Source of the DNA: Ilumatobacteraceae bacterium | GTDB lineage: Bacteria; Actinomycetota; Acidimicrobiia; Acidimicrobiales; Ilumatobacteraceae | Length of the DNA: 48,968 bases | NCBI GenBank assembly: GCA_009694565.1 | Contig: SHUR01000003.1 | Location: 1 to 48,968 of the forward strand | Direction: 5' to 3' | Part shown: positions 10,228 through 47,812 of the stretch, piece after piece | Layout of the letters: each line of letters opens with the position of its first letter | Position numbering within the stretch: the stretch's first letter is position 1 | The notes under the pieces: generated by a model | Seen by the model: only the letters and a program-made list of their open reading frames with translations | What the model was told of the DNA's origin: nothing | Database searches by the model: none | Made by a program: the position numbers and the translations under genes

Positions 10228-10238
10228 GAAAGTACGCA

Positions 10239-13807: not shown

Positions 13808-13813
13808 ATCTCC

Positions 13814-14227: not shown

Positions 14228-14238
14228 GGTAATTGCCC

Positions 14239-15021: not shown

Positions 15022-15036
15022 TCGAGAGGACATCTA

Positions 15037-16678: not shown

Positions 16679-16680
16679 TC

Positions 16681-19594: not shown

Positions 19595-19596
19595 TC

Positions 19597-28537: not shown

Positions 28538-28542
28538 TTGCC

Positions 28543-30453
28543 ATGTTGGATCTTGTTTGGCTTGTTCCAGCACTGCCATTAGCGGGCTTTTTATTGATTC
28601 TCTTGTTCGGCCGGGTTCTTGGCGAACCAGGTGCCGGAATACTGGCAACAGCGATGACCGCATCCTCTTTTGTTGTAGTGGTTGGCGTATACCTCGACCT
28701 TTTGTCACGTACTGCAGAAGAGCGCCATCACGTCGTCACATTGTTCTCGTGGTTGCCTGTCGGTTCACTGCATGTTGACATGGCTTTCCTCGCAGACCCA
28801 TTGAGCATCACGATGGCGCTCTTTGTCACGGGAATCGGATCTCTCATTCACTTGTACGCAATCGGCTATATGCATGGCGATCCGAAGTTTTCGAAGTTTT
28901 TCCTGTATCTCAACCTTTTTGTTTTCTCCATGTTGATGCTTGTTCTTGGTGAAAACCTTCTCGTTACCTTCCTTGGTTGGGAAGGTGTAGGTGCATGCTC
29001 GTACTTTCTTATCTCTTTCTGGCATACGCGCGACTCTGCAGCAACTGCTGGCAAGAAAGCATTCGTGACCAACAGAGTCGGCGACTGGGGAATGATGGTC
29101 GCGATGTTCCTTGCATTCTCTGCAGTTGGAACATTGTCATATGAAGGTATCAACGCTGCTGCAGAGGGCGGGAAAATCGCTGCTGTAACTGCTACTGGAA
29201 TAGCCATGATGTTGTTTGTCGGTGCATGTGGCAAGAGCGCACAGTTGCCACTGTACATATGGTTGCCCGACGCAATGGAAGGCCCCACTCCGGTTTCAGC
29301 TTTGATTCACGCAGCCACCATGGTGACATCCGGAGTGTTCCTTCTCACGCGTATGTCACCAGTCCTTCACGCGTCGTATCCGTGGGTGGGTGATGTAATT
29401 GCTACTGTTGGAGCTCTTACCGCACTGTTCGCAGCGACTATTGCAGTAGCTCAAACCGATATCAAAAAGGTCTTGGCATATTCCACCGTCTCGCAACTAG
29501 GTTTTATGTTCCTCGCCATCGGTTCCGGTGCGTACGTTGCAGCAATTTTCCATATGGTGACACACGCATTTTTCAAGGCTCTCTTGTTCCTTGGCTCCGG
29601 ATCCGTAATCCATGGCATGCATCATGAACAAGACATGCGCAAGATGGGTGCTCTTCGCAAGTTGATGCCAATCACCGGATTTACCTTCATTATTGGTTGG
29701 TTGGCTATTGCAGGAATCCCACCATTCGCAGGTTTCTGGTCGAAGGATGAAATTCTCCTCGCAGCGTTTGCAAACAATCGTCTTCTCTGGCTCATCGGAG
29801 TCGTCACTGCACTCTTGACCGCGTACTACATGACTCGCCAAGTCATCATGGTTTTCTTCGGTGAAGCACGTTGGCATGATCACGCAGAAGAGAATGGTGC
29901 CCATGGCGACCACACGCCACATGAAAGCCCATGGACGATGGTGACACCACTCGTCGTCCTTGCGGGTTTGTCGATTGTTGGTGGGGCGCTTCAGTTGCCG
30001 TTCTCACACAGCACAAAGTTCCTCGAGCATTGGCTTGAACCAGTGATTCATGATTCAGAGGTGTCTATCTCTGGCACCTGGGCCTATAGCAACAAGTGGT
30101 TGCTATTAGTAGTCGCAATTCTGATTGCTGTAAGTGGAGTTGTTGCATCAATAGCGGTGTATGCCAAAGGCAAGTTCAAGATTATTGAACCAAAAATACT
30201 TGCCGATGCGTGGCGATACGACTCTGCTGTGTCTGCAATAGTCGGTGGTCCTGGGCGCGCAGCCTTTAGCAGCGTTGCTGCGTTCGATGCCAAAGTCGTT
30301 GACGGTGCAGTGAATGGAATTGGTATCGAAGTTCGTGCTGCTAGTGGCCTCTTGCGCAAAATACAGAGTGGACTTGTTCGCACGTATGCATTTGTTATCG
30401 GTCTTGGTGCAGTGGTGCTGCTCGGTTGGTTCCTTCTGAGAGGAATTCTCTAA
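28543..30453 (+). CDS. nuoL: Complex I antiporter-like subunit NuoL (first cluster)
   Basis: 636 residues, usual length. The antiporter core has WLPDAMEGPTPVSALIHAAT (about 240-259) and the downstream HAFFKALLFLGSG helix; the C-terminus carries the long lateral helix region. A short His-rich loop (WHDHAEENGAHGDHTPHE, about 445-462) is present. Near the end a single VVDGAVNGIG motif stands before the last helix. Five bases separate it from nuoK; its stop overlaps the nuoM start. Confidence 0.96.
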   Translation: MLDLVWLVPALPLAGFLLILLFGRVLGEPGAGILATAMTASSFVVVVGVYLDLLSRTAEERHHVVTLFSWLPVGSLHVDMAFLADPLSITMALFVTGIGSLIHLYAIGYMHGDPKFSKFFLYLNLFVFSMLMLVLGENLLVTFLGWEGVGACSYFLISFWHTRDSAATAGKKAFVTNRVGDWGMMVAMFLAFSAVGTLSYEGINAAAEGGKIAAVTATGIAMMLFVGACGKSAQLPLYIWLPDAMEGPTPVSALIHAATMVTSGVFLLTRMSPVLHASYPWVGDVIATVGALTALFAATIAVAQTDIKKVLAYSTVSQLGFMFLAIGSGAYVAAIFHMVTHAFFKALLFLGSGSVIHGMHHEQDMRKMGALRKLMPITGFTFIIGWLAIAGIPPFAGFWSKDEILLAAFANNRLLWLIGVVTALLTAYYMTRQVIMVFFGEARWHDHAEENGAHGDHTPHESPWTMVTPLVVLAGLSIVGGALQLPFSHSTKFLEHWLEPVIHDSEVSISGTWAYSNKWLLLVVAILIAVSGVVASIAVYAKGKFKIIEPKILADAWRYDSAVSAIVGGPGRAAFSSVAAFDAKVVDGAVNGIGIEVRAASGLLRKIQSGLVRTYAFVIGLGAVVLLGWFLLRGIL

Positions 30454-32003
30454 TGCATGCTTCTTTCCCAATTCTGTCGGCGCTTGTCCTACTGCCGATT
30501 CTCGGTGCAGTTCTCATCACAATCATCAGCAATAAGCATCTCGAGTTTGTGAAACTCATCGCGATGCTTTTCAGCGTCGGTGTTGGTGGCATGTCAATTT
30601 GGCTATTGGCCTCTTTCCATTCTCATGATTCTGGATTCCAGTTTGTTTCTCAACATGAATGGGTGACGTCGTGGGGAATCTCGTGGCATCTGGGTGTTGA
30701 CGGGGTTTCTTTATTCCTTGTCGTTCTCACCGGAATCCTTTTTCCACTAGTCATTCTCGGTGTTGATCCACATCACGATCACAAGCGCTACCTGGCATGG
30801 TTGTTGTTGCTTGAAGCAGGTGTGATGGGTAGCTTCCTCAGTCTCGATCTCTTCTTGTTCTTCATCTTTTTTGAAATTGTTCTTGTGCCGATGTATTTCC
30901 TCATTGGTGGATGGGGATACGACAAGCGCGTCTACGCGGCCACAAAGTTCTTTTTGTACACAATGCTCGGGTCCGCGTTCATGCTTGTTGGCATCATTGC
31001 CACGGCGGTGATTGCACGACGCGACATTGGATACCTCACTTTTGACTTGGTCACCCTTGCTGAGCAAGCAAGTTTTGCTACCAATACTGGTCGTTGGCTG
31101 TTCGTGTCATTTGCCATTGCGTTTGCTGTGAAGGTGCCCATCTTCCCGCTGCACACATGGTTGCCTGATGCACATACACAAGCACCAACGGGTGGCTCAG
31201 TCATCTTGGCTGGTGTGTTGTTGAAGATGGGAACGTACGGGTTTCTTCGATTTGGTTTGTACTTGTTCCCATCTGCAGCTGTATGGGCAAAACCGGTGCT
31301 GCTAACACTTGCAGTTATCGGAATCATCTATGGCGCTATCGCTGCCACTATGCAGACTGACCTAAAGCGTCTTGTTGCATATTCATCTGTTGCTCACCTC
31401 GGTTTTATTGTCCTTGGTATTTTTGCCATCACCTCACAATCGCTCACGGGCAGTGTGATGCAAATGGTGAACCACGGTGTTTCTACTGGCGCGTTGTTCT
31501 TGTTGGTCGGAATGATTTACGAACGTCGCCATACCCGTGAAATCGCTGAGTTACGCGGTATTCAATCCGTTGCTCCAATATTCTCGGCGGCATTCATGAT
31601 TGTGATGTTGAGTTCAATTGGCGTGCCAGGACTCAACGGATTTGCCGGAGAGTTTTTGATACTGATTGGTTCATTTCAGTCCGCAAGGTGGTGGACCATT
31701 GTTGCTGCAACCGGCGTCATTCTTGCTGCGCTGTATTTGTTGTGGGCATACCAGCGCGTATTTCACGGTGAACCAGATGAAGCGAATTCAAGTTTCGCTG
31801 AAATGACTTTGCGTGAAGGTGCGCTACTCATGGTGTTTATCGGGCTCATCGGATTCACTGGTCTGTATCCAAAGCCAATGCTTGAGCGAATCGAGCCAAG
31901 CGTCGACAAGTTGGTGGAACATGTTGTCTCGCATAGTGATTACAGAACGCCGACCACACCCAATATTGTGGTGGAGCCTCATGGAGAAAAGGCAGGCGAG
32001 TGA
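30453..32003 (+). CDS. nuoM: Complex I antiporter-like subunit NuoM (first cluster)
   Basis: 516 residues with 14 expected helices. Typical motifs: FEIVLVPMYFLIGGWG (about 141-156) with the key glutamate, and PLHTWLPDAHTQAPTGGSVI (about 232-251). ATG 30453 overlaps the nuoL stop (TAATG); an upstream GTG-type start at 30426 lies within nuoL and is rejected. It pumps protons in the membrane arm between NuoN and NuoL. Confidence 0.96.
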   Translation: MHASFPILSALVLLPILGAVLITIISNKHLEFVKLIAMLFSVGVGGMSIWLLASFHSHDSGFQFVSQHEWVTSWGISWHLGVDGVSLFLVVLTGILFPLVILGVDPHHDHKRYLAWLLLLEAGVMGSFLSLDLFLFFIFFEIVLVPMYFLIGGWGYDKRVYAATKFFLYTMLGSAFMLVGIIATAVIARRDIGYLTFDLVTLAEQASFATNTGRWLFVSFAIAFAVKVPIFPLHTWLPDAHTQAPTGGSVILAGVLLKMGTYGFLRFGLYLFPSAAVWAKPVLLTLAVIGIIYGAIAATMQTDLKRLVAYSSVAHLGFIVLGIFAITSQSLTGSVMQMVNHGVSTGALFLLVGMIYERRHTREIAELRGIQSVAPIFSAAFMIVMLSSIGVPGLNGFAGEFLILIGSFQSARWWTIVAATGVILAALYLLWAYQRVFHGEPDEANSSFAEMTLREGALLMVFIGLIGFTGLYPKPMLERIEPSVDKLVEHVVSHSDYRTPTTPNIVVEPHGEKAGE

Positions 32004-33496
32004 TGGTTTTTGCAGCAACACTTGATGGCCCATCAGTTCCTTGGGTTGAACTGATTCCCATTCTTGCGTTATTGGCTGGTACTTGTTTTCTTTTACTCGT
32101 CGGTTCGCTCGTTCCAACATGGCCACGCCGTGGATATGCATGGGTAACGGGTATCTCAACAACTGTGGCCATCGTTGCAAATGCGGTGAAGTGGAATAAC
32201 TTGTATTACAACAAGGGCGAGACCTTCTTTGCAGATGCCATTGCCATTGATCGGTTCTCTGTTTTGGCAAGCATCACAATTTGTCTGGCAGTAATTCTCA
32301 GCGCGCTCATGCTGTCTGCCTATTTGGTGCGAATGAATGCTGACGGCCCAGAGTTGTATGCCTTGTTACTAACTGCTGCCATTGGCGCATTAGTTATGGT
32401 GTCTGCCAATGACCTGATTGTATTGTTTCTCGGACTTGAAACACTCAGTTTGTCGCTGTATCTCTTAGCTGCAAGCAATCGTGAGCGTGAACAGAGCCAG
32501 GAATCCGGTCTGAAGTACTTCATTCTTGGTGGCTTTTCGTCGGCGTTTTTCTTATACGGAGTGGCATTGATTTTCGGTTCAACGGGAAGCACAAAAATAT
32601 CGGGTATCGGAGAAGCGCTGTCGGGGAGTATCTCCATCGTCGACACAGATGCGATGTTGCTGGTGGGCATAGGCATGTTGCTTGTTGGTCTCGGGTTCAA
32701 AGTATCGGCTGCGCCTTTCCATGTGTGGACCCCTGACGTGTACGAAGGAGCACCAACTCCGGTTACCGCGTTTATGGCATCTGCCGGAAAGGTAGCTGCG
32801 TTTGCCGCCCTCATGCGTGTTCTGTTGGTGGGTCTTGAACAACGCGTTGATGATTGGCGTCCTGTTGTGTGGGCACTCGCAATCCTCACCGTATTTACTG
32901 GTTCGATTTTGGCAGTAGTCCAGACAAACGTAAAACGTATGTTGGCGTATTCATCTATTAGCCATGCCGGGTTTATTCTGGTCGGCGTAGAAGCAGCCGC
33001 CCATATGAGTGGCGACGGCATTGCAAGTTCAATGAACTACCTGGCGATCTACACCGTTTTGGTGATGGGCTCATTTGCCGTTGTTCTTGCACTGTCAGGT
33101 CACACCGATGGCGACACGAACCTCGCCGATTTCAGAGGTTTGGCAAAGCGTCGCCCAGCTCTGGCCTTGGCATTTACAGTTCTATTGTTTGCTCAAGCGG
33201 GAGTTCCATTGACCGCTGGATTTGTTGCAAAATTTGCAGTGATTAAGTCGGCTGTAGAAGCTGACTCGTACGTTCTTGCAGTGGCTGCAATGGTGGCAGC
33301 TGTCATTGGGGCCTATTTGTATCTTCGTATTGCAGTCAGCATGTGGCTAGAAGAACCTGCTTCAGATTCTGAGATCACAATCGACCCGGCCGTTGTTGTT
33401 GTCATTGCAATCGCCGTGGTTGCAACTCTGGTTGTTGGCTTCTTCCCTGAGTTACTACTTCATGCCACACGCCTTGCGCGTTTTGCACCTCGCTAA
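32003..33496 (+). CDS. nuoN: Complex I antiporter-like subunit NuoN (first cluster)
   Basis: 497 residues, third antiporter-like subunit. GLETLSLSLYLLAA contains the conserved glutamate and PFHVWTPDVYEGAPTPVTAF (about 239-258) the core motif, followed by the lysine of SAGKVAAF. ATG 32003 overlaps the nuoM stop (TGATG). It is the last gene of a unit that appears to begin at 13331; the convergent amidohydrolase ends one base away. Confidence 0.96.
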   Translation: MVFAATLDGPSVPWVELIPILALLAGTCFLLLVGSLVPTWPRRGYAWVTGISTTVAIVANAVKWNNLYYNKGETFFADAIAIDRFSVLASITICLAVILSALMLSAYLVRMNADGPELYALLLTAAIGALVMVSANDLIVLFLGLETLSLSLYLLAASNREREQSQESGLKYFILGGFSSAFFLYGVALIFGSTGSTKISGIGEALSGSISIVDTDAMLLVGIGMLLVGLGFKVSAAPFHVWTPDVYEGAPTPVTAFMASAGKVAAFAALMRVLLVGLEQRVDDWRPVVWALAILTVFTGSILAVVQTNVKRMLAYSSISHAGFILVGVEAAAHMSGDGIASSMNYLAIYTVLVMGSFAVVLALSGHTDGDTNLADFRGLAKRRPALALAFTVLLFAQAGVPLTAGFVAKFAVIKSAVEADSYVLAVAAMVAAVIGAYLYLRIAVSMWLEEPASDSEITIDPAVVVVIAIAVVATLVVGFFPELLLHATRLARFAPR

Positions 33497-36117: not shown

Positions 36118-36179
36118 CTGCGTACTGATCCACTGGGAAGTTGGGACGATAGTGAGTCCCCGTAGTAGTTTTGGAAGCG

Positions 36180-36545
36180 ATGTCCCCGTTCCTACGGTCC
36201 TATCTCACTGTTGTGTGGTTTGGACTGGCCTCCTTTCTTGTTGCCGGCTTGCTACTTGGTATTTCGGCACTCATTCGTCCGAATAATCCCAATGCGGAAA
36301 AATTGCTCACCTATGAAAGCGGTGTTGACCCCGTTGGTGATGGTTGGTCACAAAGTCAAATTCGCTATTACGTCTTTGCACTGTTGTTCGTCATCTTCGA
36401 TGTTGAAGCAGTTTTTATATTCCCGTGGGCCACTCAACTAGAGCGGTACGGAGGTTTTGGCCTCGTAGAGATGGGCATATTTGTCGCCATCTTGTTGCTT
36501 GGTCTTGTCTATGCGTGGCGCAAAGGCGTCCTGCGCTGGGTCTAG
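36180..36545 (+). CDS. nuoA: Complex I subunit NuoA (second cluster)
   Basis: 121 residues, three helices. The conserved loop is [17 protein letters not shown] (about 41-57), where the usual cysteine after ESG is absent (the first cluster has YECG), and [14 protein letters not shown] (about 68-81). ATG 36180 is chosen; a TTG at 36171 would add three residues and would leave GGAAG inside the coding region, and neither start has an ideal ribosome binding site. It opens the 11-gene set. Confidence 0.93.
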
Positions 36546-36561
36546 GAATAAGGGTTTTATC

Positions 36562-37116
36562 ATGGGTCTTGTAGATCGCGGTCGGTTGGGCAAACCGCTG
36601 ACACAATTATTTAACCTCGGTCGTTCGTACAGCCTTTGGGTGTACCAATGGGGTCTTGCATGTTGTGCAATTGAAATGGGTGCGGCATTTGGTTCGCCAC
36701 GTTACGACGTCATGCGTCTCGGAGTCATTCCTCTTCCTGCTTCACCGCGTCAAGCAGACCTTGTTGTTATCTCCGGAACTGTTACAGACAAAATGGCGCC
36801 AGCTATTAAGCGTTTGTATGAACAGATGCCCGAGCCGAAGTACGTCATTTCAATGGGTTCATGTGCAAATTGCGGTGGACCTTATTGGGATAGTTATTCA
36901 GTAACAAAGGGAATTGATCAAATCATTCCTGTCGATGTGTACATACCTGGCTGTCCTCCACGACCTGAAGCATTACTTGAAGGAATTGTGTTGTTGCAAC
37001 AACGCATTAAGCACGAAGACATGGGCGCACGTTGGCGCGGCGAAGGCACAAAGTCAATGTACGTCGATGGCGAAACTGCAGAAAAGGGAGGTATCCCCGT
37101 TGTCGTCAACAACTGA
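36562..37116 (+). CDS. nuoB: Complex I subunit NuoB (second cluster), cluster N2
   Basis: 184 residues. N2 ligands Cys34 and Cys35 (GLACCAIEM), Cys101 and Cys131 are present, with an additional Cys104 (SCANCGG). The N-terminus [12 protein letters not shown] and the tail [14 protein letters not shown] differ clearly from the first-cluster copy, so the two are old paralogues rather than recent duplicates. AAGGG precedes ATG 36562. The following nuoC start lies inside its 3' end. Confidence 0.96.
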
Positions 37117-37753
37117 TACCCCAACTGAAACACCACGCGACGATGTGCGCGATCCAGAGATTGCTCGCGTATGTGCAGCGCTCGGAAGTGCTGTGGTTGA
37201 TTCGCTCGTTAAGCCAAACGATGACATGTGGATTCGTGTGACTGCAGATGCATGGCGCTCAACCGGCGACACTTTAAAGAGCCTCGGTTACACCTATTTC
37301 GGATTCATCTCCGCCATTGACTGGTTGCCATCGCCGTATGGTCGCGGTGAAGACGACCCAACTGCGCCACCAGTCGAGCGCAGCAGTGTTATCAAACAGG
37401 GCTACGCAGGTGGTGACACTCGTTTTCAAGTGATTGCGCGTCTTGTGCAACCGTTCACCACACTTGGTATCAATATCAAAGTTGATGTTGATGATTCTCT
37501 AATGGCAATCGATTCATGGTCGCAAGTCTTTGCTGGTGCAAACTGGCATGAGCGCGAAACACATGAGATGTTTGGTATTAGTTTTAATGGTCATCCTGAT
37601 TTGCGCAATATGTATTTGCCAAAAGATTTTGAAGGGTACCCACTACGTAAAGACTTTCCGTTGCTTGCACGCATGGTGAAACCATGGCCCGGAATTGTTG
37701 ATGTTGAGCCACTCCCTGGTGATGACAGTGAAGAGGAAGGTGACGCATCATGA
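37100..37753 (+). CDS. nuoC: Complex I subunit NuoC (second cluster)
   Basis: 217 residues from TTG 37100, chosen because GGGAGG (37086-37091) stands eight bases upstream; the gene then overlaps nuoB by 17 bases. The signature [19 protein letters not shown] and [15 protein letters not shown] is near 155-192. The inserted acidic/proline segment after [14 protein letters not shown] is absent from the first-cluster NuoC, as is the acidic tail [10 protein letters not shown]. Streptomyces second clusters are reported without nuoC, whereas here it is retained. Confidence 0.93.
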
Positions 37754-38922
37754 GTCTTCTCGGAGATCGTCAACAACTTGCATACATCGCAGCGCAAGCT
37801 GCTGACGCGCGCGTCAACGTTGAACTTGAAACAGAGGGCATGACTCTCAACATCGGGCCACAGCATCCTGCCACACACGGAACTTTGCGAATCATTGCTC
37901 GTCTTGATGGCGAACAAGTTCTTTGGGCGGATCCATCGTGCGGCTACATGCACCGTGGTTATGAAAAACTTACTGAAGTTCGTTCGTACCCTCAAGTTAC
38001 ATCGCTGGTAAACCGCATTGACTGGCTTGGATCATTTGCAAACGAAGTTCCCTTCATCTTGGCTGCTGAAAAATTAATGGGTGTTGAAGCGCCATCACGG
38101 GCACAGCACATTCGCACCATCTTGTTTGAATTATCACGTATTGCAAACGTCACTTTGTTTCTCGGTGATCTTGGTGTTCAGCTCGGCGCTGTTACGCCAG
38201 TGTTCTTTGCGTTCCGTGACCGTGAATATGTTTTGAACCTTATTGAAGGTGCAACGGGTGGACGCTTCCATCCAAACTTTGACCGCATCGGTGGATTGAA
38301 AGACGATCTGCCTGCTGGCTTTATCGATGAGACCCGCAATGTCATGAAGAAGCTTCGTGGCTTCTGCGATCAAATCGAAGACCTGTTGTTCGGAAACGAA
38401 ATTTTCCAATCACGTACCCGCGGCATTGGTGTGATTCCGAAAGATGTCGCATTGCAATACGGAATGTCTGGTGCAAACTTGCGTGCAAGTGGAGTTGACT
38501 GGGATCTTCGTCGTGACCAGAAATTGCCTCTTGCGTACGACAAGGTTGACTTCAAAGTCATTACTCATCCAGATGGTGACTCGTTTGCACGTTGCTGGGT
38601 ACGTCTGCAGGAAGTTCGTGAGTCAACACGCATTGTTGATCAACTGCTTGAAACAATTCCTACGGGGCCCATCATGGCTAAGGTGCCAAAGATCATCAAG
38701 GTTCCCGAAGGTGAAGCATGGGTCTCAACTGAGAACCCTCTTGGTGAAATGGGCTACTACGTCGTTTCTCAAGGTGACATGGGGCCATTCCGCGTCAAGA
38801 TTCGCAGCGCATCGTTCAACAACATCTCGATTACTCCGTGGCTATTGAAGGGTGTCTATGTCCCAGACATCATCACCATTCTTGCTTCGTTGTATTTTAT
38901 TCTTGGCGACATTGATCGCTGA
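37750..38922 (+). CDS. nuoD: Complex I subunit NuoD (second cluster), with mitochondrial-type arginine
   Basis: 390 residues. NIGPQHPATHGTL (34-46) gives the quinone-site histidines. SCGYMHRGYEKL (63-74) has Arg69 directly after His68, the position of Arg85 in mature bovine NDUFS2, which NDUFAF7 dimethylates; the first-cluster NuoD has threonine there. A short N-terminal extension of about 30 residues is present. ATGA overlap with nuoC and TGATG with nuoH. The MidA/NDUFAF7-like gene at 46784 is in the same unit. Confidence 0.96.
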   Translation: MSLLGDRQQLAYIAAQAADARVNVELETEGMTLNIGPQHPATHGTLRIIARLDGEQVLWADPSCGYMHRGYEKLTEVRSYPQVTSLVNRIDWLGSFANEVPFILAAEKLMGVEAPSRAQHIRTILFELSRIANVTLFLGDLGVQLGAVTPVFFAFRDREYVLNLIEGATGGRFHPNFDRIGGLKDDLPAGFIDETRNVMKKLRGFCDQIEDLLFGNEIFQSRTRGIGVIPKDVALQYGMSGANLRASGVDWDLRRDQKLPLAYDKVDFKVITHPDGDSFARCWVRLQEVRESTRIVDQLLETIPTGPIMAKVPKIIKVPEGEAWVSTENPLGEMGYYVVSQGDMGPFRVKIRSASFNNISITPWLLKGVYVPDIITILASLYFILGDIDR

Positions 38923-39983
38923 TGAATCTCGCATCTGTGCTTTCTGCTGATCTGCCGTATTGGGCGCAGTCACTTCTTCGTGTTTTAGGCGGGCTTGTTG
39001 CCGTTCTTCTTCCAGCTGGAACAGTGGTGTATCTGTTCTTGTTCAAGATGATGTCGTTCATGCAGTCACGTCTTGGCCCAATGGAAGCTGGCCCCCAGGG
39101 TTCGATGCAACTTTTTGCCGAAGTTGGTAAGTGGCTGCAAAAGGAAGACATCTATCCAGCGCGTGCTGACAAGTTCATCTTCAAGTTGGCTCCGCTGATT
39201 GTCTTGGCGAGCACGTTCCTTTTGGTGGTTGTTGTGCCGTTTGGTCCTGATGCACTGTTTACCGACTTTGAAGCAGGGGTGTTTTATGCACTTGCAGTGT
39301 CGTCGGTATCAGTTCTAGGAATTCTGATTGCCGGTTGGGCGAGTGCTAATAAGTACTCGTTGCTCGGTGGTTTACGTGCAGCTGGTCAGCTCATCGCGTA
39401 TGAACTTCCGATGGTTCTTGCTGTTGTCGGCGTAGTGATCCAGGCTGGCACTATGAACCTGCAACAAATCGTGGTTGCACAAAATGCCGACTCAATGTTT
39501 GGCTTCAGTGGTCTTGGTAACCCATATGTCATTACACAGTTCGTTGGTTTTATCGTGTTTATGATTGCGGTACAGGCTGAACTTACGCAGACTCCGTTCG
39601 ACATGCCCATTGCCGAATCTGAACTCGTGTCTGGTTACATGACTGAATACTCGGGCTTCCGATTCCTGATTTTCTTCATTGGTGAATTTGCGACTGCTGG
39701 TGTGTTCTCCATGATTGCCTCTGTTCTCTTCCTTGGCGGCTGGTCGGTGCCATTCTCGTGGTTCGGTTGGACCACCATCGACAGCATTGACAACTGGATG
39801 AACATCGTCGGACCACTTATCTTGTTCACCAAGATGATTATCGTTGTCTTCTTCATCATGTGGGTGCGCTTTTCATACCCACGTTTCCGTGAAGATCAAT
39901 TGCAGAAGTTTGCTTGGAAAGTTCTTATCCCCGTATCGCTTGCCAACATCATGGTCACAGCAATTCTGAAGGTGGCGTTCTAA
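38922..39983 (+). CDS. nuoH: Complex I subunit NuoH (second cluster)
   Basis: 353 residues, about eight helices. Recognised by FMQSRLGPMEAGPQGSMQLF (about 46-65), the SVLGILIAGWASANKYSLLG region and QTPFDMPIAESELVSGYMTEYSG with the quinone-channel acids, where the first copy has [14 protein letters not shown]. Its stop overlaps the nuoI start. Because nuoE, F and G are missing, nuoH follows nuoD directly. Confidence 0.95.
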   Translation: MNLASVLSADLPYWAQSLLRVLGGLVAVLLPAGTVVYLFLFKMMSFMQSRLGPMEAGPQGSMQLFAEVGKWLQKEDIYPARADKFIFKLAPLIVLASTFLLVVVVPFGPDALFTDFEAGVFYALAVSSVSVLGILIAGWASANKYSLLGGLRAAGQLIAYELPMVLAVVGVVIQAGTMNLQQIVVAQNADSMFGFSGLGNPYVITQFVGFIVFMIAVQAELTQTPFDMPIAESELVSGYMTEYSGFRFLIFFIGEFATAGVFSMIASVLFLGGWSVPFSWFGWTTIDSIDNWMNIVGPLILFTKMIIVVFFIMWVRFSYPRFREDQLQKFAWKVLIPVSLANIMVTAILKVAF

Positions 39984-40474
39984 TGCCAAAAGTTCCTGGT
40001 CTCGTTAAAGGTCTTGGTGTCACTTTCGGCACCATGATGAAAACCTTCAAGGACGGTTCAAACACGGTTCAGTATCCCCATGTAAAAGAAACGCCTCCGC
40101 TTCGTGCCCGTGGTGTTATCGCGCTTCATGAAGGTAACTGCACCTCATGCATGCTGTGTGTTCGTTCATGTCCCGACTGGTGTATCTACATTGAAGGCCA
40201 TAAAGAGATGGCTCCACCGCGTCGCGCTGGTGGTGCTGCTCGTAAAGTCAACAAACTTGATCGCTTTGATATCGACTACGCATTGTGCATGTACTGCGGG
40301 ATCTGCGTTGACGTGTGTCCGTTCGACGCATTGTTCTGGAGTCCTGAGTACGAATATTCAGAACCACGTATTGCTGATCTCTTGCACGACAAAACAAAAC
40401 TTGGAGAGTGGATGGAAACGGTTCCTGAAGCACCAGAACTTGAAGTCGGTGCAGACAAGAAGGGCAAGAAATAG
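39983..40474 (+). CDS. nuoI: Complex I subunit NuoI (second cluster)
   Basis: 163 residues. Two [4Fe-4S] motifs: Cys53, 56, 59 and 63 (CTSCMLCVRSCP) and Cys102, 105, 108 and 112 (CMYCGICVDVCP). A 38-residue basic insert lies between them, and a Glu/Lys tail closes the protein. In complexes without an NADH module this subunit is the likely entry point for electrons from ferredoxin or a flavin partner. ATG 39983 overlaps the nuoH stop (TAATG). Confidence 0.95.
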   Translation: MPKVPGLVKGLGVTFGTMMKTFKDGSNTVQYPHVKETPPLRARGVIALHEGNCTSCMLCVRSCPDWCIYIEGHKEMAPPRRAGGAARKVNKLDRFDIDYALCMYCGICVDVCPFDALFWSPEYEYSEPRIADLLHDKTKLGEWMETVPEAPELEVGADKKGKK

Positions 40475-40986
40475 TGTTTGCCTCTGATGTTCTCGTTGCT
40501 CAAAATATTGGTTTTGCGATCATTGCTACAATCATGGTCATCGGTGCCTTGCGTGTCGTTACAACCAACAATGTTGTCCACGCTGCGTTGTGGTTAGTTG
40601 TTGTTCTTGCCGGTGCAGCAGCACAATACGTATTACTTGCCGCTGAGTTTGTTGCTATTACTCAAGTCCTTGTCTACATCGGTGCTGTAATGGTGTTGTT
40701 CTTGTTCGGAACAATGTTGACGCGTACTCGTATTGGAGCTGAGTCAGATCTCAACAACAAAAATTTGTTTTTCGGAATTTTCGTTGCTCTCACACTATTC
40801 GTTGCAATGGCAATGGCCCTCAATAGCGAATTCGGTAGTGAGAAAATGCCAGCAAATCCTGCAGTCGCAACCACGCAAGAAATTTCGGATCAAATCTTTG
40901 GTCCGTATCTCTTGCCGTTCTGGGCTTTGTCGTTTGTACTGCTAGCCGCTGTAGTCGGAGCCATTGTGCTTGCACGGAGGGACTAA
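40474..40986 (+). CDS. nuoJ: Complex I subunit NuoJ (second cluster)
   Basis: 170 residues, five helices, GTG start sharing a base with the nuoI stop (TAGTG). The motif QVLVYIGAVMVLFLFGTML (about 66-84) is the NuoJ helix-3 signature. No unusual extension. Confidence 0.94.
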   Translation: MFASDVLVAQNIGFAIIATIMVIGALRVVTTNNVVHAALWLVVVLAGAAAQYVLLAAEFVAITQVLVYIGAVMVLFLFGTMLTRTRIGAESDLNNKNLFFGIFVALTLFVAMAMALNSEFGSEKMPANPAVATTQEISDQIFGPYLLPFWALSFVLLAAVVGAIVLARRD

Positions 40987-40988
40987 TT

Positions 40989-41288
40989 ATGTTGGTCAAC
41001 CAATTTCTCTTGCTTGCTGCTGTTTTGTTTTGCATTGGCGTCTATGGCGTTATCGCCCGCAAGAACGCTGTCCTTGTGTTGATGTCAATCGAACTCATTT
41101 TGAACTCAGTAAATATCAATCTGCTGGCCTTCTCTATGCGTAATGGCTCTCTTGATGGCCATACCTTCGCGCTGTACATCATCGCAATTGCCGCTGCCGA
41201 AGTTGGTGTGGGTCTCGCAATGGTCCTCCTCATGTATCGCAATCGCCGTTCTATTGACCTTGATGAACTCTCAGAGATGAAGGGCTGA
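40989..41288 (+). CDS. nuoK: Complex I subunit NuoK (second cluster)
   Basis: 99 residues, three helices. Both conserved glutamates are seen, in LMSIELILNSVN and AAAEVGVGLAMVL. GGAGGG overlaps the end of nuoJ as ribosome binding site. Two bases separate it from nuoJ and four from nuoL. Confidence 0.95.
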   Translation: MLVNQFLLLAAVLFCIGVYGVIARKNAVLVLMSIELILNSVNINLLAFSMRNGSLDGHTFALYIIAIAAAEVGVGLAMVLLMYRNRRSIDLDELSEMKG

Positions 41289-41292
41289 TCCA

Positions 41293-43734
41293 ATGCTTGC
41301 TGAAGCCACAGAAGCAGCACTGAAGTCGGGGTGGTTCCTCGAGCATGCATGGGCCATCCCCGTCATTCCTGCATTGTCGTTCTTTCTTATTATTTTCTTC
41401 GGAAAGCGCATGCCAAAGAAGGGAAGTGAATTCGGCGTTGCTTCCATGATTGGTGCGTTGATCTTTGCTGGTGGTGCTGCATTCCAATGGATTCAACGAG
41501 TCAACGGAGCTCCTGAAGAAGCTTTTGTTTCCCCCGTTGTGAAGACATGGACGTGGTGGCAAAACAGTGGAATAACGTTTGGCATTGGTCAACATGTTGA
41601 CGGACTCACTGTCGCAATTCTTTTGGTTGTTGCGTTTATCTCCACTTTGGTGCAGGTCTATTCACTCGAATATCTGCGTGGAGATCGTCGCTACACTCAC
41701 TTTTTCGCTTCATTGACTTTGTTCTCTGCCGGAATGCTCAACATGGTTGTTGCAGAGAACATGATTCAACTCATCTTGGGTTGGGAAATCATGGGTCTGT
41801 GCTCATTCCTTCTTATTGGTCACTGGTGGGAAGAGGGCGCAAACAGTCGCGCTGCACTGAAAGCGTTCTTCACCACACGCACTGGTGATATCGGTCTTCT
41901 CACAGGCACAGCCATTCTGTTTTTCTCAGCTAATGAATGGACCACAAAGACGCTTGGCGTTTCTGGCTTCTCGATTCGTGGTCTGTCATCGTGGGCGTTG
42001 TCAGGTGACCCTGGCCATGCAGCCATCACAATGGGTGCAATAGCCCTCTTTATTGCAGCTATCGGCAAGAGTGGTCAGTTCCCACTGCACACATGGTTGC
42101 CAGATGCAATGGCTGGTCCAACCCCTGTTAGTTCGCTATTGCATTCATCAACCATGGTTGTTGCTGGTGTGTTCCTCGTCGCTCGTTTGTACCCGGTTTT
42201 CTTCAAAGGCATGGACATCCTTGGGGGCAGCGCCAACTTCATCGTTGTCATCGGTGGCATCACCATCGTTATTGCTGCACTGCTCGCGTTTGTGCAGACA
42301 GATATCAAGAAGGTTCTTGCCTACTCAACAGTAAGCCAACTTGGCTACATGATGATGGGACTTGGTGCCGGTGCATGGTTGCCGGCCGTCTTTCACATCT
42401 TCACGCACGCGTTCTTTAAAGCATGTTTGTTTCTTGGTGCCGGGTCAATCAGCCACAGTTCTTCGCATCACTCATTCGAGATGAAAAAAGACATGGGTGG
42501 GCTTCGCAAGTTCATGCCAATCACTTTTGGCACGTGGATTGTTTCCACTCTTGCTCTCTGTGGAGTGTTCCCCTTCTCTGGGTTCTTTTCAAAAGATGAA
42601 ATCATCGACAACGTTGGGCACAATGGCTACAACGTTTTCATGATTGTTGGACTTGCCGGAGCATTCCTCACTGCGGCCTACATGACGCGCGCAACGTATC
42701 TCACTTTCTTTGGTCAGCCACGTGGTGCATCTGCAGGTGAACATCATGAAGAAGAGAGCCAAGACTCGCATGCGGTACATGATGACCGTGCAGACCATGG
42801 CCACGACACTCATGATTCACACGATGCTCACGCATCACACGGACCACGTGAATCTGGTTGGCTCATCACTGTTCCACTGGTTATCTTGGCAACACTTGCT
42901 CTTGGCTCTGGTTTCTTAAACGCAGCACCATTTGGAGAAAAGTGGGAAAACTTTAAGAAGTGGGTTGAGCCGAGTGCAGAAGTAGTCAACCCCACAGGCA
43001 TTGCTTATGTCGTTGGCGGTGTCGGCGAGGCTCGCGTCGCATCAGATACTCCAACAGACTCAACTGTTGTAGAGGGAGAAGACTCAACTGTTGTAGAAGA
43101 TGAAGCGCACTCCGAGATGTTGGAGGCGACCACTGCCAGTGGTGAAGACACACATTCCAGTGAATCAGTACATCATGAATCGCCGTGCGGAACTGAGACG
43201 CCAGAGCAAGGTGTTTGCGCGGCCCCGCAGCTTAGCCACGCGCCATTCAAGTGGTCTAAGGCCGGACTTTCAATGCTGATTGTTCTCGCCGGCTTCCTTC
43301 TCAGTTTGTTTGTATGCATTCAGTTGTACGAAAAGAAAAACGAGAAGTTTGTTGGCCTCACAGAGCGAAATAAGGCATTGGGCTTTGGATACAAGCTTCT
43401 TGTCAATAAGTACTACCTTGATGTTTTGTATGAAAAAATCATTGTTCGCTCGATCGCACACCCCATTGCCGGTGCGGTGTACTGGTTCAATCAAAAAGTT
43501 CTTGATGGCGTCGTTAACGGAGCAGGTACAACAGCAAAGACCATTGCTGGTTGGGTGTACCGCAATATCGATCAACGCGTGGTCGATGGAGCCGTGAACG
43601 GCACGGGCAGTGTTGCTCAAGGTGCCGGAAGCGCACTTCGTCCTGTTCAGTCTGGAAAAGTCAATCAATATGGGGCGTTGTTGTTCGGCGCAGCCGCCAT
43701 CGGCGCCCTCGTACTCGTCATCGTAAATACCTAG
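41293..43734 (+). CDS. nuoL: Complex I antiporter-like subunit NuoL (second cluster), enlarged
   Basis: 813 residues, about 180 more than the first-cluster NuoL. The core is standard: FPLHTWLPDAMAGPTPVSSL (about 263-282) and HAFFKACLFLGAG. Two insertions stand out. Residues about 480-518 are rich in histidine, aspartate and serine, with ten His. Residues about 579-650 are acidic, with a duplicated DSTVVE segment and two cysteines (SPCGTE, GVCAAP). The C-terminus has two tandem DGxVNGxG motifs (about 738 and 762) before the last helix. Possible metal binding or regulation is inference. The reading frame is intact and in operon context, so this is not a fusion artefact. Confidence 0.94.
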   Translation: MLAEATEAALKSGWFLEHAWAIPVIPALSFFLIIFFGKRMPKKGSEFGVASMIGALIFAGGAAFQWIQRVNGAPEEAFVSPVVKTWTWWQNSGITFGIGQHVDGLTVAILLVVAFISTLVQVYSLEYLRGDRRYTHFFASLTLFSAGMLNMVVAENMIQLILGWEIMGLCSFLLIGHWWEEGANSRAALKAFFTTRTGDIGLLTGTAILFFSANEWTTKTLGVSGFSIRGLSSWALSGDPGHAAITMGAIALFIAAIGKSGQFPLHTWLPDAMAGPTPVSSLLHSSTMVVAGVFLVARLYPVFFKGMDILGGSANFIVVIGGITIVIAALLAFVQTDIKKVLAYSTVSQLGYMMMGLGAGAWLPAVFHIFTHAFFKACLFLGAGSISHSSSHHSFEMKKDMGGLRKFMPITFGTWIVSTLALCGVFPFSGFFSKDEIIDNVGHNGYNVFMIVGLAGAFLTAAYMTRATYLTFFGQPRGASAGEHHEEESQDSHAVHDDRADHGHDTHDSHDAHASHGPRESGWLITVPLVILATLALGSGFLNAAPFGEKWENFKKWVEPSAEVVNPTGIAYVVGGVGEARVASDTPTDSTVVEGEDSTVVEDEAHSEMLEATTASGEDTHSSESVHHESPCGTETPEQGVCAAPQLSHAPFKWSKAGLSMLIVLAGFLLSLFVCIQLYEKKNEKFVGLTERNKALGFGYKLLVNKYYLDVLYEKIIVRSIAHPIAGAVYWFNQKVLDGVVNGAGTTAKTIAGWVYRNIDQRVVDGAVNGTGSVAQGAGSALRPVQSGKVNQYGALLFGAAAIGALVLVIVNT

Positions 43735-43746
43735 GGAGCTACCGCA

Positions 43747-45288
43747 ATGGAAGTCATAAGCAACCACAACTGGGCTCTAACAGTCGGCACATTCTTGCCG
43801 CTTGTCGGAGTTCTGATCATGCTGTTCATACCGAAAGCTGAAGAGGCACTGATTAAATCAGTCGCAATCGCAACAGCAATCGCCACACTCGCTGTGGGTA
43901 TTTACACAATGGTCCAGTTCGACTTCGGCAATGCCGGCGCCATGCAGTTCGTGGCGAAACACGACTGGATTTCAGTCATTAAGTCGTCGTATTACATCGG
44001 CATCGATGGCATCAGCCTTCCGCTCTACCTCCTGTCGATGGTGATCACCGTTCTCGTCATGATTTATTCGTGGGATCACGTGCCATCACCTGGCAACCCA
44101 AAGGCATTCTTCAGCTTGATGTTGATTCTGCAAACAGGTATGGCCGGAACATTCATTGCTCGCGACCTCATCTTGTTCTTCGTGTTCTTCGAACTTGTGC
44201 TTTTGCCGATGTACTTCATGATCGGTGTTTGGGGTGGCGAAAATCGTCAATACGCATCGCTCAAGTTTTTCTTGTACACCATGTTTGGATCGGCTCTCAT
44301 GTTGGTTGCCTTCTTGGCATTATTCTTCAAGACGGGAGCTGAGAGCTTCTCTATTCCGTTCCTCATTGAGCAGGGCGTCAATATTTCACGCACTACTCAA
44401 ATTTGGATTTTCGCCGGAATGTTCGTTGGCTTTGCAGTCAAAGTTCCGATGTTTCCATTCCACACATGGTTGCCAGATGCACATACTCAAGCACCAACAC
44501 AGGGTTCAGTCATCCTTGCTGCAGTGTTGTTGAAGTTGGGTACGTATGGGTTTGTACGTATCGCAATTCCGGTTCTTCCAGAAGCAGCGAGAGCATGGGC
44601 ACCATATATAGGTGGTCTTGCAGTGATCGGAATTATCTACGGTTCGCTTGGCTGTCTTGCACAAACTGATATGAAGCGTCTGATTGCTTTCTCGTCTGTG
44701 GCACATATGGGCTTCGTGATGCTCGGTATTTCAACTCTCACTTCATTCGGTATGAATGCTGCGATGTTTGGCATGGTTGCCCATGGTCTCATCACCGGCA
44801 TGTTGTTCTTCGTTGCTGGTTCTGTCAAAGAGCGTTACCACACGCTGGAAATTAAGCGCATTTCTGGCATGTTGTTGCAGATGCCAAAACTTGGATGGAT
44901 TCTTGGCTTCTGTGCAATGGCGTCACTCGGCTTACCGGGTCTTGCTGGTTTCTGGGGCGAGTTCCCAGCAATCTTGTCTGCATACCAACCAGCTCCGGGA
45001 CTTTCAGTCAATGTGTTCCGCACGTACATGGTGATTGCAGCTATCGGAACAGTCTTTGCTGCCGCTTACTTGTTATGGCTCTTCCAGCGCATCGCATTTG
45101 GTGAACCAGCTGCAGAGTTTGCTGCTGGTCACGGACATGATGAGGACATCCATGATGTCAACAAGTTTGAGTGGATTGCCTGGACACCACTTCTGATCGC
45201 AATTGTTGTCTTTGGTGTGTACCCACAATTGATGTTCAAGGTTCTTGACCCAGCAGTGGGCGTTACTCTAAAGGCTTTCGGAGGCTGA
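43747..45288 (+). CDS. nuoM: Complex I antiporter-like subunit NuoM (second cluster)
   Basis: 513 residues. FFELVLLPMYFMIGVWG (about 140-156) with the key glutamate and PFHTWLPDAHTQAPTQGSVI (about 237-256) identify it. GGGAG at 43734-43738 precedes ATG 43747. A His/Asp-rich loop near the end (GHGHDEDIHDV) is modest. It is more similar in length to the first copy than NuoL is. Confidence 0.95.
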   Translation: MEVISNHNWALTVGTFLPLVGVLIMLFIPKAEEALIKSVAIATAIATLAVGIYTMVQFDFGNAGAMQFVAKHDWISVIKSSYYIGIDGISLPLYLLSMVITVLVMIYSWDHVPSPGNPKAFFSLMLILQTGMAGTFIARDLILFFVFFELVLLPMYFMIGVWGGENRQYASLKFFLYTMFGSALMLVAFLALFFKTGAESFSIPFLIEQGVNISRTTQIWIFAGMFVGFAVKVPMFPFHTWLPDAHTQAPTQGSVILAAVLLKLGTYGFVRIAIPVLPEAARAWAPYIGGLAVIGIIYGSLGCLAQTDMKRLIAFSSVAHMGFVMLGISTLTSFGMNAAMFGMVAHGLITGMLFFVAGSVKERYHTLEIKRISGMLLQMPKLGWILGFCAMASLGLPGLAGFWGEFPAILSAYQPAPGLSVNVFRTYMVIAAIGTVFAAAYLLWLFQRIAFGEPAAEFAAGHGHDEDIHDVNKFEWIAWTPLLIAIVVFGVYPQLMFKVLDPAVGVTLKAFGG

Positions 45289-45291
45289 CCC

Positions 45292-46800
45292 GTGCTAAGC
45301 ACAATCGCCACCGCAGCGTGGTCATCGCCAACAATTGATTACCACGCGTTAGCTCCTGAGATGATTCTTGGGTTAGGTATTGTGCTGCTCTTGTTGCTCG
45401 ACTTGTTCTTGTCTGATGCTCGTAAATGGTTGTTAACCCCTGTCGCAAGTTTTACCTTGCTTGGTGCGTTCATCCCGGTACTGACGTTGGCATTAAACGA
45501 TGCCGGCACGCGACAAATGTTTGACGGTCGTTACGTGATTGATGATTTCAGTTTGGTGATGAAGGGCATGTTCTTACTTGCCGGATACGTAGTTGTTCTT
45601 CTTGCCGCTGACTACATCCGTGAAGGTGACTATTACCAAGGTGAATTTTGGTTCCTCATGCTGTCCAGTATTATGGGAATGGTCATGATGGCATCAAGCC
45701 GCGACCTCATCTCCATTTTCGTGTCGCTTGAGTTCTTATCCATTCCTGCATACATGCTTGCTGCATGGCGCAAGCGTGATTCGCGAAGCAACGAGGCTGG
45801 TATCAAGTACTACCTTCTTGGCGTCTTTGCCTCAGCAATCATGCTGTACGGCATGTCATTGCTCTACGGAATCACGAACTCAACAAAGCTCACTGAGATC
45901 GGTGCTTCTCTTGGTAGCAACCTCTCCTCAATTCGTGCACTCGCGGTGTTCTTCGTGGTCATCGGTTTTGCGTTCAAGATTTCAGCGGTGCCATTTCACA
46001 CGTGGGCGCCTGACACTTATCAAGGTGCACCAACACCTGTTACTGCATTCTTGTCAGTTGCCTCAAAGGCAGCTGGTTTCGTTGCGCTTGTAACGGTTGT
46101 GTATGTCGGATTCCCTGGCTCACACGCCGTGTGGCAGCCCGTCTTTTGGATTCTCTCTGCGGCCACAATGACTCTTGGCAACGTCATGGCATTGAAGCAA
46201 ACAAGCATCGTGCGAATGTTGGCCTATTCATCAATCGCACAGGGCGGTTTCATCCTCATGCCACTCGCCGTTGCTGGTGAAACGGGTGTCGCAGAGTCTG
46301 CGTTACGCGCGGTCGTTACGTACCTCATTGTGTATGCAGCCACCAACCTCGGTGTCTTTGCTGTCGTTATGGTTGTCGCTCGCAAGACACGTAGTGGTGA
46401 AATTTCCTCGTACGGTGGGTTGTTCTCATATGCCCCTGGTATCGCAACTCTGATGACTATCTTTATGGCATCGCTTGCTGGTATCCCGCCGTTTGGTGGT
46501 TGGTTCGGCAAGTTCGCAGCCTTCCAGTCGCTTGTTTCTGCCGGTACAACCTGGGCCTATGTTCTTGCAATCATTGGTGGCGTGAACTCAGTTGTCGCTT
46601 TTGGCTACTACGGCAGCATCTTGCGCGAAATGTGGATGCGCCCTGTTCCAGACGGTGACACATCTCCAGTACCTGTGAAGTCATCACTTGCAGTCGCCCT
46701 TGGTATTACTAGCCTCGCGACATTGTTGTTGGGTGTGTTACCTGGCCTCGTGATTCACTTCGGTGATATTGCCGGTCTAGCCGGTGCCTTCGGCCGCTGA
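45292..46800 (+). CDS. nuoN: Complex I antiporter-like subunit NuoN (second cluster)
   Basis: 502 residues, GTG start three bases after the nuoM stop. SLEFLSIPAYMLAAW carries the conserved glutamate; PFHTWAPDTYQGAPTPVTAF (about 234-253) and SVASKAAGF give the core with lysine. The last 17 bases overlap the methyltransferase gene, so the two are translationally linked. Confidence 0.95.
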   Translation: MLSTIATAAWSSPTIDYHALAPEMILGLGIVLLLLLDLFLSDARKWLLTPVASFTLLGAFIPVLTLALNDAGTRQMFDGRYVIDDFSLVMKGMFLLAGYVVVLLAADYIREGDYYQGEFWFLMLSSIMGMVMMASSRDLISIFVSLEFLSIPAYMLAAWRKRDSRSNEAGIKYYLLGVFASAIMLYGMSLLYGITNSTKLTEIGASLGSNLSSIRALAVFFVVIGFAFKISAVPFHTWAPDTYQGAPTPVTAFLSVASKAAGFVALVTVVYVGFPGSHAVWQPVFWILSAATMTLGNVMALKQTSIVRMLAYSSIAQGGFILMPLAVAGETGVAESALRAVVTYLIVYAATNLGVFAVVMVVARKTRSGEISSYGGLFSYAPGIATLMTIFMASLAGIPPFGGWFGKFAAFQSLVSAGTTWAYVLAIIGGVNSVVAFGYYGSILREMWMRPVPDGDTSPVPVKSSLAVALGITSLATLLLGVLPGLVIHFGDIAGLAGAFGR

Positions 46801-47812
46801 TTCCATTCGCGCTGCGATTGCAGCGTCACAGGGGAGCATTCCGTTCTCTTCGTTCATGGACTTCGCACTGTACAGCGAGCATGGTTTCTATTCAACAAAA
46901 GGACGCGCTGGCCGACGTGGAGATTTCATTACCTCTGCGGAAGTAGGACCGTTGTTCGGAACTGTTCTTGGTCGAGCAATCGATGACGTATGGAATCGTC
47001 TTGGCCAACCGGACAATTTTCAGATTGTGGAAGTGGGTGCTGGTCCTGGAACGTTGGCACGATCTATTCTTGCTGCAGCGCCAGAATGTCTTCAGCGGGG
47101 CGAATACATCACCATTGAAACCAGTGCAACACAGCGGGCGCTTCACCCAGATGGCGTGACATCAACTGACTCAATGCCATCAATCATTGAATACGGCGTA
47201 GTCATCGCCAATGAATTGCTTGACAACATTCCTTTTGAATTGTGGGTATACGACGACGGGTGGCGCGAGGCACATGTGATTGCAACTGGTGAATCTTTTG
47301 CCGAGATCTTGGTGAACTCTCCAGTTTCATCGTTCTTGCCAAGCAGAGCATCACATGGTTCACGTGCACCTATTCAACGTGAAGCCGCGCAGTGGTTGGC
47401 CGATTCATTATCGGTACTACGTCGTGGGTCAGTTATTGCCTTCGATTACTGCACACCTCTAACGGCTGAAGTTGCATCAATGCCGTGGCGCGAATGGTTG
47501 CGAACATACGCAAGCCATGAAAAAGGTAAGCACTACTTACGCAACCCCGGCGAACAAGACATCACAACGCAAGTGCTCATTGATCAATTGACTGTGGTGC
47601 GTGAACCAGATGCAGTGAGAACACAAGCTCAATTTCTTCAGCGGTGGGGCATAGATGAATTGGTGGAAGAGGGCAAGCGGGTGTGGGCTGAACAAGCATC
47701 TGCGCCGACGCTTGCGGCAATAAAAATGCGAAGCCGCGTTACAGAAGCTGAAGCTTTGTTAGATGAAACCGGACTCGGAAATTTCACCGTATTGGAATGG
47801 AATAATCGCTAA
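46784..47812 (+). CDS. MidA/NDUFAF7-family SAM-dependent protein methyltransferase
   Basis: 342 residues of the DUF185 family. In mitochondria the family member NDUFAF7 dimethylates Arg85 of NDUFS2, the NuoD homologue, during complex I assembly. Seen here: FMDFALYSEHGFYS (24-37), GDFITSAEVGPLFG (46-59), the SAM motif VEVGAGPGTLARSIL (82-96), VIANELLDNIPFELW (about 135-149) and the C-terminal GIDELVEEGKR/KMRSRV region. The GTG start lies inside nuoN2, giving a 17-base overlap. The placement in the second nuo unit points to NuoD2 as substrate, which has the target-type arginine. The modification itself is inference. The stop overlaps the convergent transporter gene by four bases. Confidence 0.88.
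   Translation: MPSAADSIRAAIAASQGSIPFSSFMDFALYSEHGFYSTKGRAGRRGDFITSAEVGPLFGTVLGRAIDDVWNRLGQPDNFQIVEVGAGPGTLARSILAAAPECLQRGEYITIETSATQRALHPDGVTSTDSMPSIIEYGVVIANELLDNIPFELWVYDDGWREAHVIATGESFAEILVNSPVSSFLPSRASHGSRAPIQREAAQWLADSLSVLRRGSVIAFDYCTPLTAEVASMPWREWLRTYASHEKGKHYLRNPGEQDITTQVLIDQLTVVREPDAVRTQAQFLQRWGIDELVEEGKRVWAEQASAPTLAAIKMRSRVTEAEALLDETGLGNFTVLEWNNR

Follow-up and report, generated by a model that had tools for sequence, protein, structure and literature searches.

A MidA/NDUFAF7-type methyltransferase gene at the end of one of two complex I operons, and its association with Arg-type NuoD

Background

Why does a gene of the MidA/NDUFAF7 methyltransferase type lie at the end of the operon for one of two complexes I encoded in a single bacterial genome? 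The question is raised by a 48,968-nucleotide stretch of DNA from an Ilumatobacteraceae bacterium (assembly GCA_009694565.1, contig SHUR01000003.1, positions 1 to 48,968, forward strand), which was analysed whole and is called the window throughout. It carries two complex I operons, nuo1 and nuo2, and the gene in question, midA, overlaps the last gene of nuo2. Human NDUFAF7 methylates an arginine of NDUFS2 early, before the 400-kDa subcomplex, and this probably stabilises the contact with NDUFS7 (passages of PMC3829151). By analogy, we consider it likely that MidA methylates the corresponding residue of the second NuoD, Arg69, during the assembly of complex 2 only. Labels beginning with G, C, L and f are our own for genomes, contigs, loci and families.

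A methyltransferase gene overlapping the end of nuo2

46784 to 47812, plus strand: midA, MidA/NDUFAF7-type S-adenosylmethionine (SAM)-dependent methyltransferase, 342 amino acids, GTG start
46784 to 46800, plus strand: overlap of the nuoN2 end and the midA start, 17 bases; the nuoN2 stop ends at 46800

A preliminary description of this DNA, made from its letters, had placed a methyltransferase reading frame at 46784 to 47812 with a 17-base overlap with nuoN2; the coordinates and a match to PF02636 agree with it. Its wording "fused by overlap" has to be dropped, as the genes overlap by 17 bases and there is no fusion. The Pfam match covers residues 61-272 (1.7e-27; 96.9 bits vs a curated cut-off of 23.3), and no other PF02636 match occurs in the assembly to which the window belongs (completeness about 71%). 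Ahead of Met25 the frame offers no usual start but GTG 46784, which is likely the start of midA because an in-frame stop just upstream of it closes the frame. In all 17 genomes of the genus (own included) with both genes in the fetched locus, a GTG gives the identical 17-base overlap; in most of these 17 apart from the own genome, additional upstream start candidates are present as well. Of eight comparisons within the genus, six gave a ratio of non-synonymous to synonymous substitution rates (dN/dS) of 0.04-0.13 and two were saturated at synonymous sites; by this sequence measure midA is under purifying selection.

The AlphaFold2 model of MidA (mean predicted local distance difference test, pLDDT, 93.3) was searched against known structures with Foldseek. 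The top five entries, 4g67, 4f3n, 5ztz, 5zu0 and 1zkd, represent three proteins of the MidA/COG1565 kind (E-values 3.3e-25 to 1.0e-20); 5ztz, which we take to be Dictyostelium MidA, was matched at an E-value of 1.1e-21 and a template modelling (TM) score of 0.79 by query length. The next match was a different kind of methyltransferase (2.3e-06), and matches below rank 6 were set aside as relatives, being other methyltransferase kinds. The protein contains EVGAGPG, presumably the glycine-rich SAM site, and NELLDN, a type of motif to which we ascribe a role in MidA/NDUFAF7; N143, E144 and D147 are invariant in an alignment of 14 sequences. An NCBIfam search of MidA gave no family at 1e-3, which is not a defining feature. 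Thus the gene shares with human and Dictyostelium NDUFAF7/MidA the PF02636 family, the whole-chain fold (5ztz) and a target-type arginine in the partner, and differs from them in being a bacterial gene within a nuo operon, in a genome with two complexes and the target residue in one only.

The arginine is swapped between subunits

18564 to 33496, plus strand: nuo1 operon, 14 subunits A1 to N1, including nuoE1, F1 and G1
19013 to 19594, plus strand: nuoB1, with Arg83 (Oxidored_q6, 3.2e-28)
19259 to 19261, plus strand: NuoB1 Arg83 codon CGA, the arginine replacing the NuoD arginine in complex 1
20097 to 21425, plus strand: nuoD1, Thr-in-NuoD type (TIGR01962, 2.8e-165; HTGMEK)
20379 to 20381, plus strand: NuoD1 Thr95 codon ACT
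36171 to 46800, plus strand: nuo2 operon A2-B2-C2-D2-H2-I2-J2-K2-L2-M2-N2, without nuoE, nuoF and nuoG
36562 to 37116, plus strand: nuoB2 (Oxidored_q6, 1.6e-30 for the longer open reading frame); the ATG start at 36562 is our choice, the longest frame beginning at 36481
36778 to 36780, plus strand: NuoB2 Thr73 codon ACT (numbering starts at 36562), the Thr side of the swap
37750 to 38922, plus strand: nuoD2, Arg-in-NuoD type (Complex1_49kDa, 4e-80; HRGYEK)
37954 to 37956, plus strand: NuoD2 Arg69 codon CGT, the presumed methylation target

The contrast first noticed between the two NuoDs, Arg69 in NuoD2 and Thr95 in NuoD1, is borne out (GYMHRGYEK vs GYLHTGMEK). From it the preliminary description had concluded that one complex has both modifier and target and the other has neither. 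The former part stands, complex 2 having midA and Arg69; the latter does not, as complex 1 holds an arginine at NuoB1 Arg83. The arginine is swapped between subunits, with NuoD2 R69/NuoB2 T73 in one complex and NuoD1 T95/NuoB1 R83 in the other. Judged from these residues, complex 1 is not without the arginine and keeps it in NuoB1, the subunit carrying cluster N2. NuoD2 Arg69 was equated with bovine Arg85 and Yarrowia Arg121 through the HRGxE motif, and NuoB1 Arg83 with R83 of Thermus Nqo6 through the AGR/AGT motif (passages of PMC8042128).

An "intersubunit residue switch" of this kind has been described between Yarrowia, with Arg in NDUFS2 and Thr in NDUFS7, and Thermus, with Thr in Nqo4 and Arg83 in Nqo6, the side chains occupying the same space (passages of PMC8042128). 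The Thermus thermophilus pair recurs in the window's nuo1 operon (NuoD1 Thr95, NuoB1 Arg83). However, the switch as published in those passages lies between two organisms, whereas here a single genome has both states, one of them accompanied by MidA.

The swap was followed in other genomes at loci where a single NuoD and a single NuoB could be read, each such pair being counted one time for a given genome and context. Among 255 distinct NuoD/NuoB pairs from 225 other genomes, 169 were Arg/Thr, 83 Thr/Arg and 3 Arg with another residue, and none of the 255 was Arg/Arg or Thr/Thr; the pattern is thus obeyed by the window's own two pairs and by 252 of the 255. The exceptions are L238, a remote hydrogenase-like pair in our reading, L357 (G404) and L370 (G206:C93), the last two having an Arg-type NuoD with Trp or Ser in NuoB in place of Thr. 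On a tree of 323 NuoD rows (FastTree, motif column kept in) Arg/Thr changes once, and the Thr-type NuoD is, on this sequence evidence, therefore one old lineage.

MidA is nearly always accompanied by Arg-type NuoD

MidA was found in 58 of the 188 genomes of an Actinomycetota sample. NuoD letters were read in all 58, and Arg-type NuoD is present in 57 of them. Similarly, 66 genomes in a Chloroflexota sample of 151 gave strong MidA matches (weak partial matches in G318, G368 and G406 were counted as negative; the raw tally is 69/151), and Arg-type NuoD is present in 66/66. Additionally, 40 of 80 named MidA loci were searched for NuoD: 4 gave none, 3 remote matches only, one (G254) was counted under Chloroflexota, and the 32 other MidA-positive genomes with letters, outside the Chloroflexota sample, were all of the Arg type, G256 having the Thr type as well.

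The remaining Actinomycetota genome, G119 (95% complete; loci L372 and L420), has two good MidA matches; the matches listed for it include a single NuoB and no NuoD other than the Thr type. An overlooked second NuoD was considered and given up, since the NuoB search gave one NuoB, of the Arg type; G119 is either an exception or an assembly gap.

In MidA-negative genomes the NuoD letters came from chosen loci and were available for 66 of 130 Actinomycetota and 53 of 85 Chloroflexota; for some of the latter with several NuoDs just one was read. The 66 Actinomycetota comprise 41 with Arg-type NuoD and 25 with the Thr type only, as read. In the Fisher table for this phylum (57+1 vs 50+25) profile scores gave the type of the 50, with letters as well for 41; the table leaves aside 55 MidA-negative genomes whose NuoD matches were absent or only remote. 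For Chloroflexota with a single NuoD (one TIGR01962 match, or one NuoD matching in two stretches; G378, with a very weak match, excluded), Arg-type NuoD was found in 28/28 MidA-positive vs 10/25 MidA-negative genomes, 15 being Thr-type (Fisher 5.2e-7, ancestry not removed). On closer inspection this split sits wholly in the full-length NuoD matches (Arg-type in 18/18 MidA-positive vs 1/16 MidA-negative), the other NuoD subtype showing no difference (10/10 and 9/9).

The outcome is a one-way rule: MidA is nearly always accompanied by Arg-type NuoD, and Arg-type NuoD often occurs without MidA. The co-occurrence of HRG-type NuoD with MidA, which the preliminary description had proposed for survey, is therefore seen from MidA to arginine (57/58 and 66/66) and not in the reverse direction. 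Given how often an Arg-type NuoD stands without MidA, target and modifier do not form an obligatory pair. No PF02636 match was obtained in the control genome of E. coli. E. coli NuoCD resembles NuoD2 in being of the Arg type, and differs in that its HRG arginine is unmodified (PMC3750175); the arginine can therefore work without modification.

The residue following the arginine was also looked at. A requirement for Gly in the presence of MidA was tried and rejected: Gly was found in 49/57 MidA-positive vs 18/41 MidA-negative Actinomycetota (Fisher 1.8e-5) and in 35/40 vs 13/18 Chloroflexota (p 0.26), six more MidA-negative genomes all have Gly, and the full Chloroflexota MidA-positive count is 59/66. 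Gly after Arg is not a general rule. MidA-negative Arg-type NuoDs often have Cys or Asn at this position, HRC in 15/41 Actinomycetota and HRN in 3/18 Chloroflexota (L240-L264, L415, L416, L418); HRN is also found in the second NuoD of a MidA-positive genome (L490).

midA lies near Arg-type nuoD

Considering the own genome and 30 relatives, MidA is present in 28/31. In 27 of these the fetched locus has nuoN2 upstream of midA, and the last locus is at a contig edge. In the Actinomycetota sample, 29 of the 58 MidA-positive genomes have an Arg-type nuoD no farther than 10 kb from midA. The most direct comparison is offered by the 44 MidA-positive Actinomycetota with both NuoD types, where 26 have the Arg-type nuoD within 10 kb of midA and 0 have the Thr-type nuoD that close (the Thr type in this count being assigned by profile score, with letters read for part). 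A Thr-type nuoD comes within 25 kb of midA in 3 Actinomycetota genomes, because nuo1 is upstream of nuo2. Equal linkage with HTG-type operons, which had been named at the outset as the outcome that would speak against the idea, is not what Actinomycetota present (26/44 for the Arg type vs 0/44 for the Thr type). The paralogue-specific assembly step suggested in the preliminary description thus gains support as far as the paralogue-specific link is concerned, although its premise that complex 1 has neither element was a misreading.

Of the 66 MidA-positive Chloroflexota, 11 have an Arg-type nuoD within 10 kb of midA; no Thr-type NuoD was found in these 11 genomes, which makes them uninformative on the choice between types. 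With rough genome sizes, about 0.35 linked genomes would be expected by chance in Actinomycetota and about 0.33 in Chloroflexota.

Genomes of f27 and f38 have midA 0.2 to 7 kb from nuoD2; the stretches read around nuoD2, 12 to 20 kb in f27 and 4 to 11 kb in f38, showed no other nuo genes close to it. The position of midA beside a lone nuoD2 therefore points to NuoD rather than to other subunits or the complex in general. The loci of this form are L090-L095 (f27) and L374, L384, L389, L391 and L392 (f38). L379 (G165:C498:1-11500) also carries a nuo2-midA operon of a type closely resembling that of the window. The other NuoD of G165 reads HRS, and G165 is the only MidA-positive genome of its family in the sample, so that the contig may be a foreign one in a metagenome-assembled genome or reflect transfer; G165 is counted as MidA-positive and linked although this contig looks foreign.

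Points against, and alternative readings

Several observations weigh against methylation of NuoD2 Arg69 by MidA and have to be set beside the counts given above. Arg-type NuoD without MidA is common in Actinomycetota and occurs in 10 of the 25 MidA-negative single-NuoD Chloroflexota, one NuoD subtype shows no difference at all, G119 has MidA with Thr-type NuoD only, and a NuoD match is missing in 4 of the 40 other MidA-positive genomes from the named loci. Among the 80 named loci, many of them short, nuo genes are near midA in just 3 (L139, L141, L182), which makes linkage a minority state elsewhere. HRA replaces HRG in six f27 genomes, all with midA within 10 kb of that nuoD. Finally, related genomes repeat one history and are not independent, and the Arg/Thr difference is a single change on the NuoD tree.

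Some of these points would suit a different target, with MidA methylating another residue or subunit of complex 2 (e.g. NuoB2, NuoC2 or another residue of NuoD2) and the HRG arginine serving as a lineage marker. The six f27 genomes reading HRA with midA near nuoD2 and the many Arg-type NuoDs without MidA are in line with this, and the single Arg/Thr change means that correlation cannot separate the arginine from the rest of its lineage. We nevertheless regard such a target as unlikely: exactly this arginine is the target of human NDUFAF7 (passages of PMC3829151), the lone nuoD2 loci with midA and no other nuo genes in the stretches read speak against other subunits, and the arginine is present in 57/58 and 66/66 MidA-positive genomes.

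Quite unlikely, in our view, is a role in which the main substrate of bacterial MidA lies elsewhere, for example in DNA or other proteins, its gene neighbourhood being historical. G119, with MidA and no Arg-type NuoD, and the nuo linkage of just 3/80 named loci could be explained in this way, and Wolbachia MidA in dam-/dcm- E. coli was accompanied by 166 called methylated bases with no well conserved pattern (passages of PMC12455994). That signal, however, amounts to few bases with an overexpressed gene, and the 26 vs 0 of 44 in Actinomycetota with both NuoD types speaks against such a role.

The shared history of the genomes also raises the question of hitch-hiking, in which midA was caught at the operon end by chance and kept by operon inheritance, the association being shared ancestry only. 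A tree of the Thr-type NuoDs gave 7 supported independent pairs differing in the presence of Arg-type NuoD; MidA differs in the same direction in 5.1 of them on average and never in the opposite one, with a median p of 0.06. In this test the Thr-type rows over-represent the best-scoring NuoD1, and 14 rows of unknown Arg status are omitted. So few independent pairs, with this p value, and the relatedness of the genomes are what hitch-hiking has in its favour. We hold it to be highly improbable, given that MidA never runs opposite to Arg-type NuoD in these pairs and that the arrangements vary: at an operon end, beside a lone nuoD2 in differing orientations, and near other nuoD types in Chloroflexota. 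On the Arg-type NuoD rows MidA changes at least 18 times; it is therefore often gained or lost while the arginine stays.

A proposed role in the assembly of complex 2

Methylation of NuoD2 Arg69 by MidA would fit the following scheme, in which midA is an assembly gene for complex I, now incorporated into the operon that encodes its client complex. MidA would bind newly made NuoD2 and (di)methylate the HRG Arg69 before NuoD2 docks on NuoB2. The modified Arg69 would then lie beside cluster N2, in the space left by NuoB2 Thr73, and help to lock NuoD2 to NuoB2. NuoD1, which has no arginine at this site, would not be a MidA substrate; complex 1 would take its arginine from NuoB1 Arg83, present in the cluster-holding subunit from the start, and would need no methylation step. 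The methylation itself, its timing and the key-and-lock role are what we infer by analogy, the Yarrowia arginine having been proposed as a key-and-lock part between the two subunits and its mutation destroying N2 (passages of PMC8042128). Because mutation destroys N2, methyl effects are inseparable there from effects of the arginine.

Several elements of this scheme are already known, namely the enzyme family, the human target, methylation in Paracoccus, a proteobacterial origin and the Thermus switch. A 2018 paper on MidA in Cell Reports, to go by its title, reportedly places the origin in Proteobacteria, and it may already contain parts of the wider survey given here. We take C2orf56 to be NDUFAF7. 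By evolutionary rate C2orf56 has been grouped with other assembly factors, and the passages concerned describe no gene linkage (PMC3436739). In passages of a 2025 paper prokaryotic MidA function is "only inferred in silico" (PMC12455994). The Nqo4 arginine of Paracoccus denitrificans is dimethylated, as established by mass spectrometry (PMC3750175), and a bacterial origin of the modification, as suggested in the preliminary description, has reportedly been published already. Paracoccus is similar to the present case in having a bacterial complex I with the target arginine, there shown to be modified (PMC3750175), and differs in being a proteobacterium, the complex here being an actinobacterial one of 11 subunits. 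Among the literature matches listed, part of them titles or abstract beginnings, none was found on a midA gene placed within one of two complex I operons or on midA-nuo linkage, nor on the swap within one genome or the one-way rule in two non-proteobacterial phyla. What the window holds is a known kind of enzyme in a new, testable arrangement.

If only by a narrow balance, we favour a broader picture in which bacteria have two ways of placing an arginine beside N2, either unmodified in NuoB or in NuoD, where it would be finished by MidA in many, though not all, lineages. MidA would be tied to the NuoD way across phyla, and the MidA-NuoD system would not be confined to Proteobacteria and mitochondria; this genome would combine both ways, with the modifier in one operon only. 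A cell with a NuoD-arginine complex plus modifier and a NuoB-arginine complex provides an internal control for the role of the modification, and the one-way rule together with the proximity to Arg-type nuoD gives bacterial MidA a substrate prediction.

Other features of the two operons and their surroundings

The nuo2 operon fits an 11-subunit complex I without the NADH module (nuoA-D and nuoH-N, no nuoE, F or G). One NuoF match was found in the own genome; among 18 further genomes of the genus 16 have NuoF, and one of these shows an additional partial match; in this search none of the 31 genomes reaches the curated family cut-off. Because nuo2 is without nuoE, F and G and members of the genus have essentially one NuoF each, complex 2 must either borrow an NADH module or use another donor such as ferredoxin. 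NuoL2 (41293-43734) has 813 amino acids and a long stretch rich in His, Asp and Ser. Before nuo1, at 5578-17742, there are a regulator gene, which we assume to be of the Rex-like family, hemA, hemC, hemD, hemB, an aminotransferase gene (probably hemL) and then cytochrome bc1 genes, which with nuo1 bring a large part of the respiratory chain into a single stretch.

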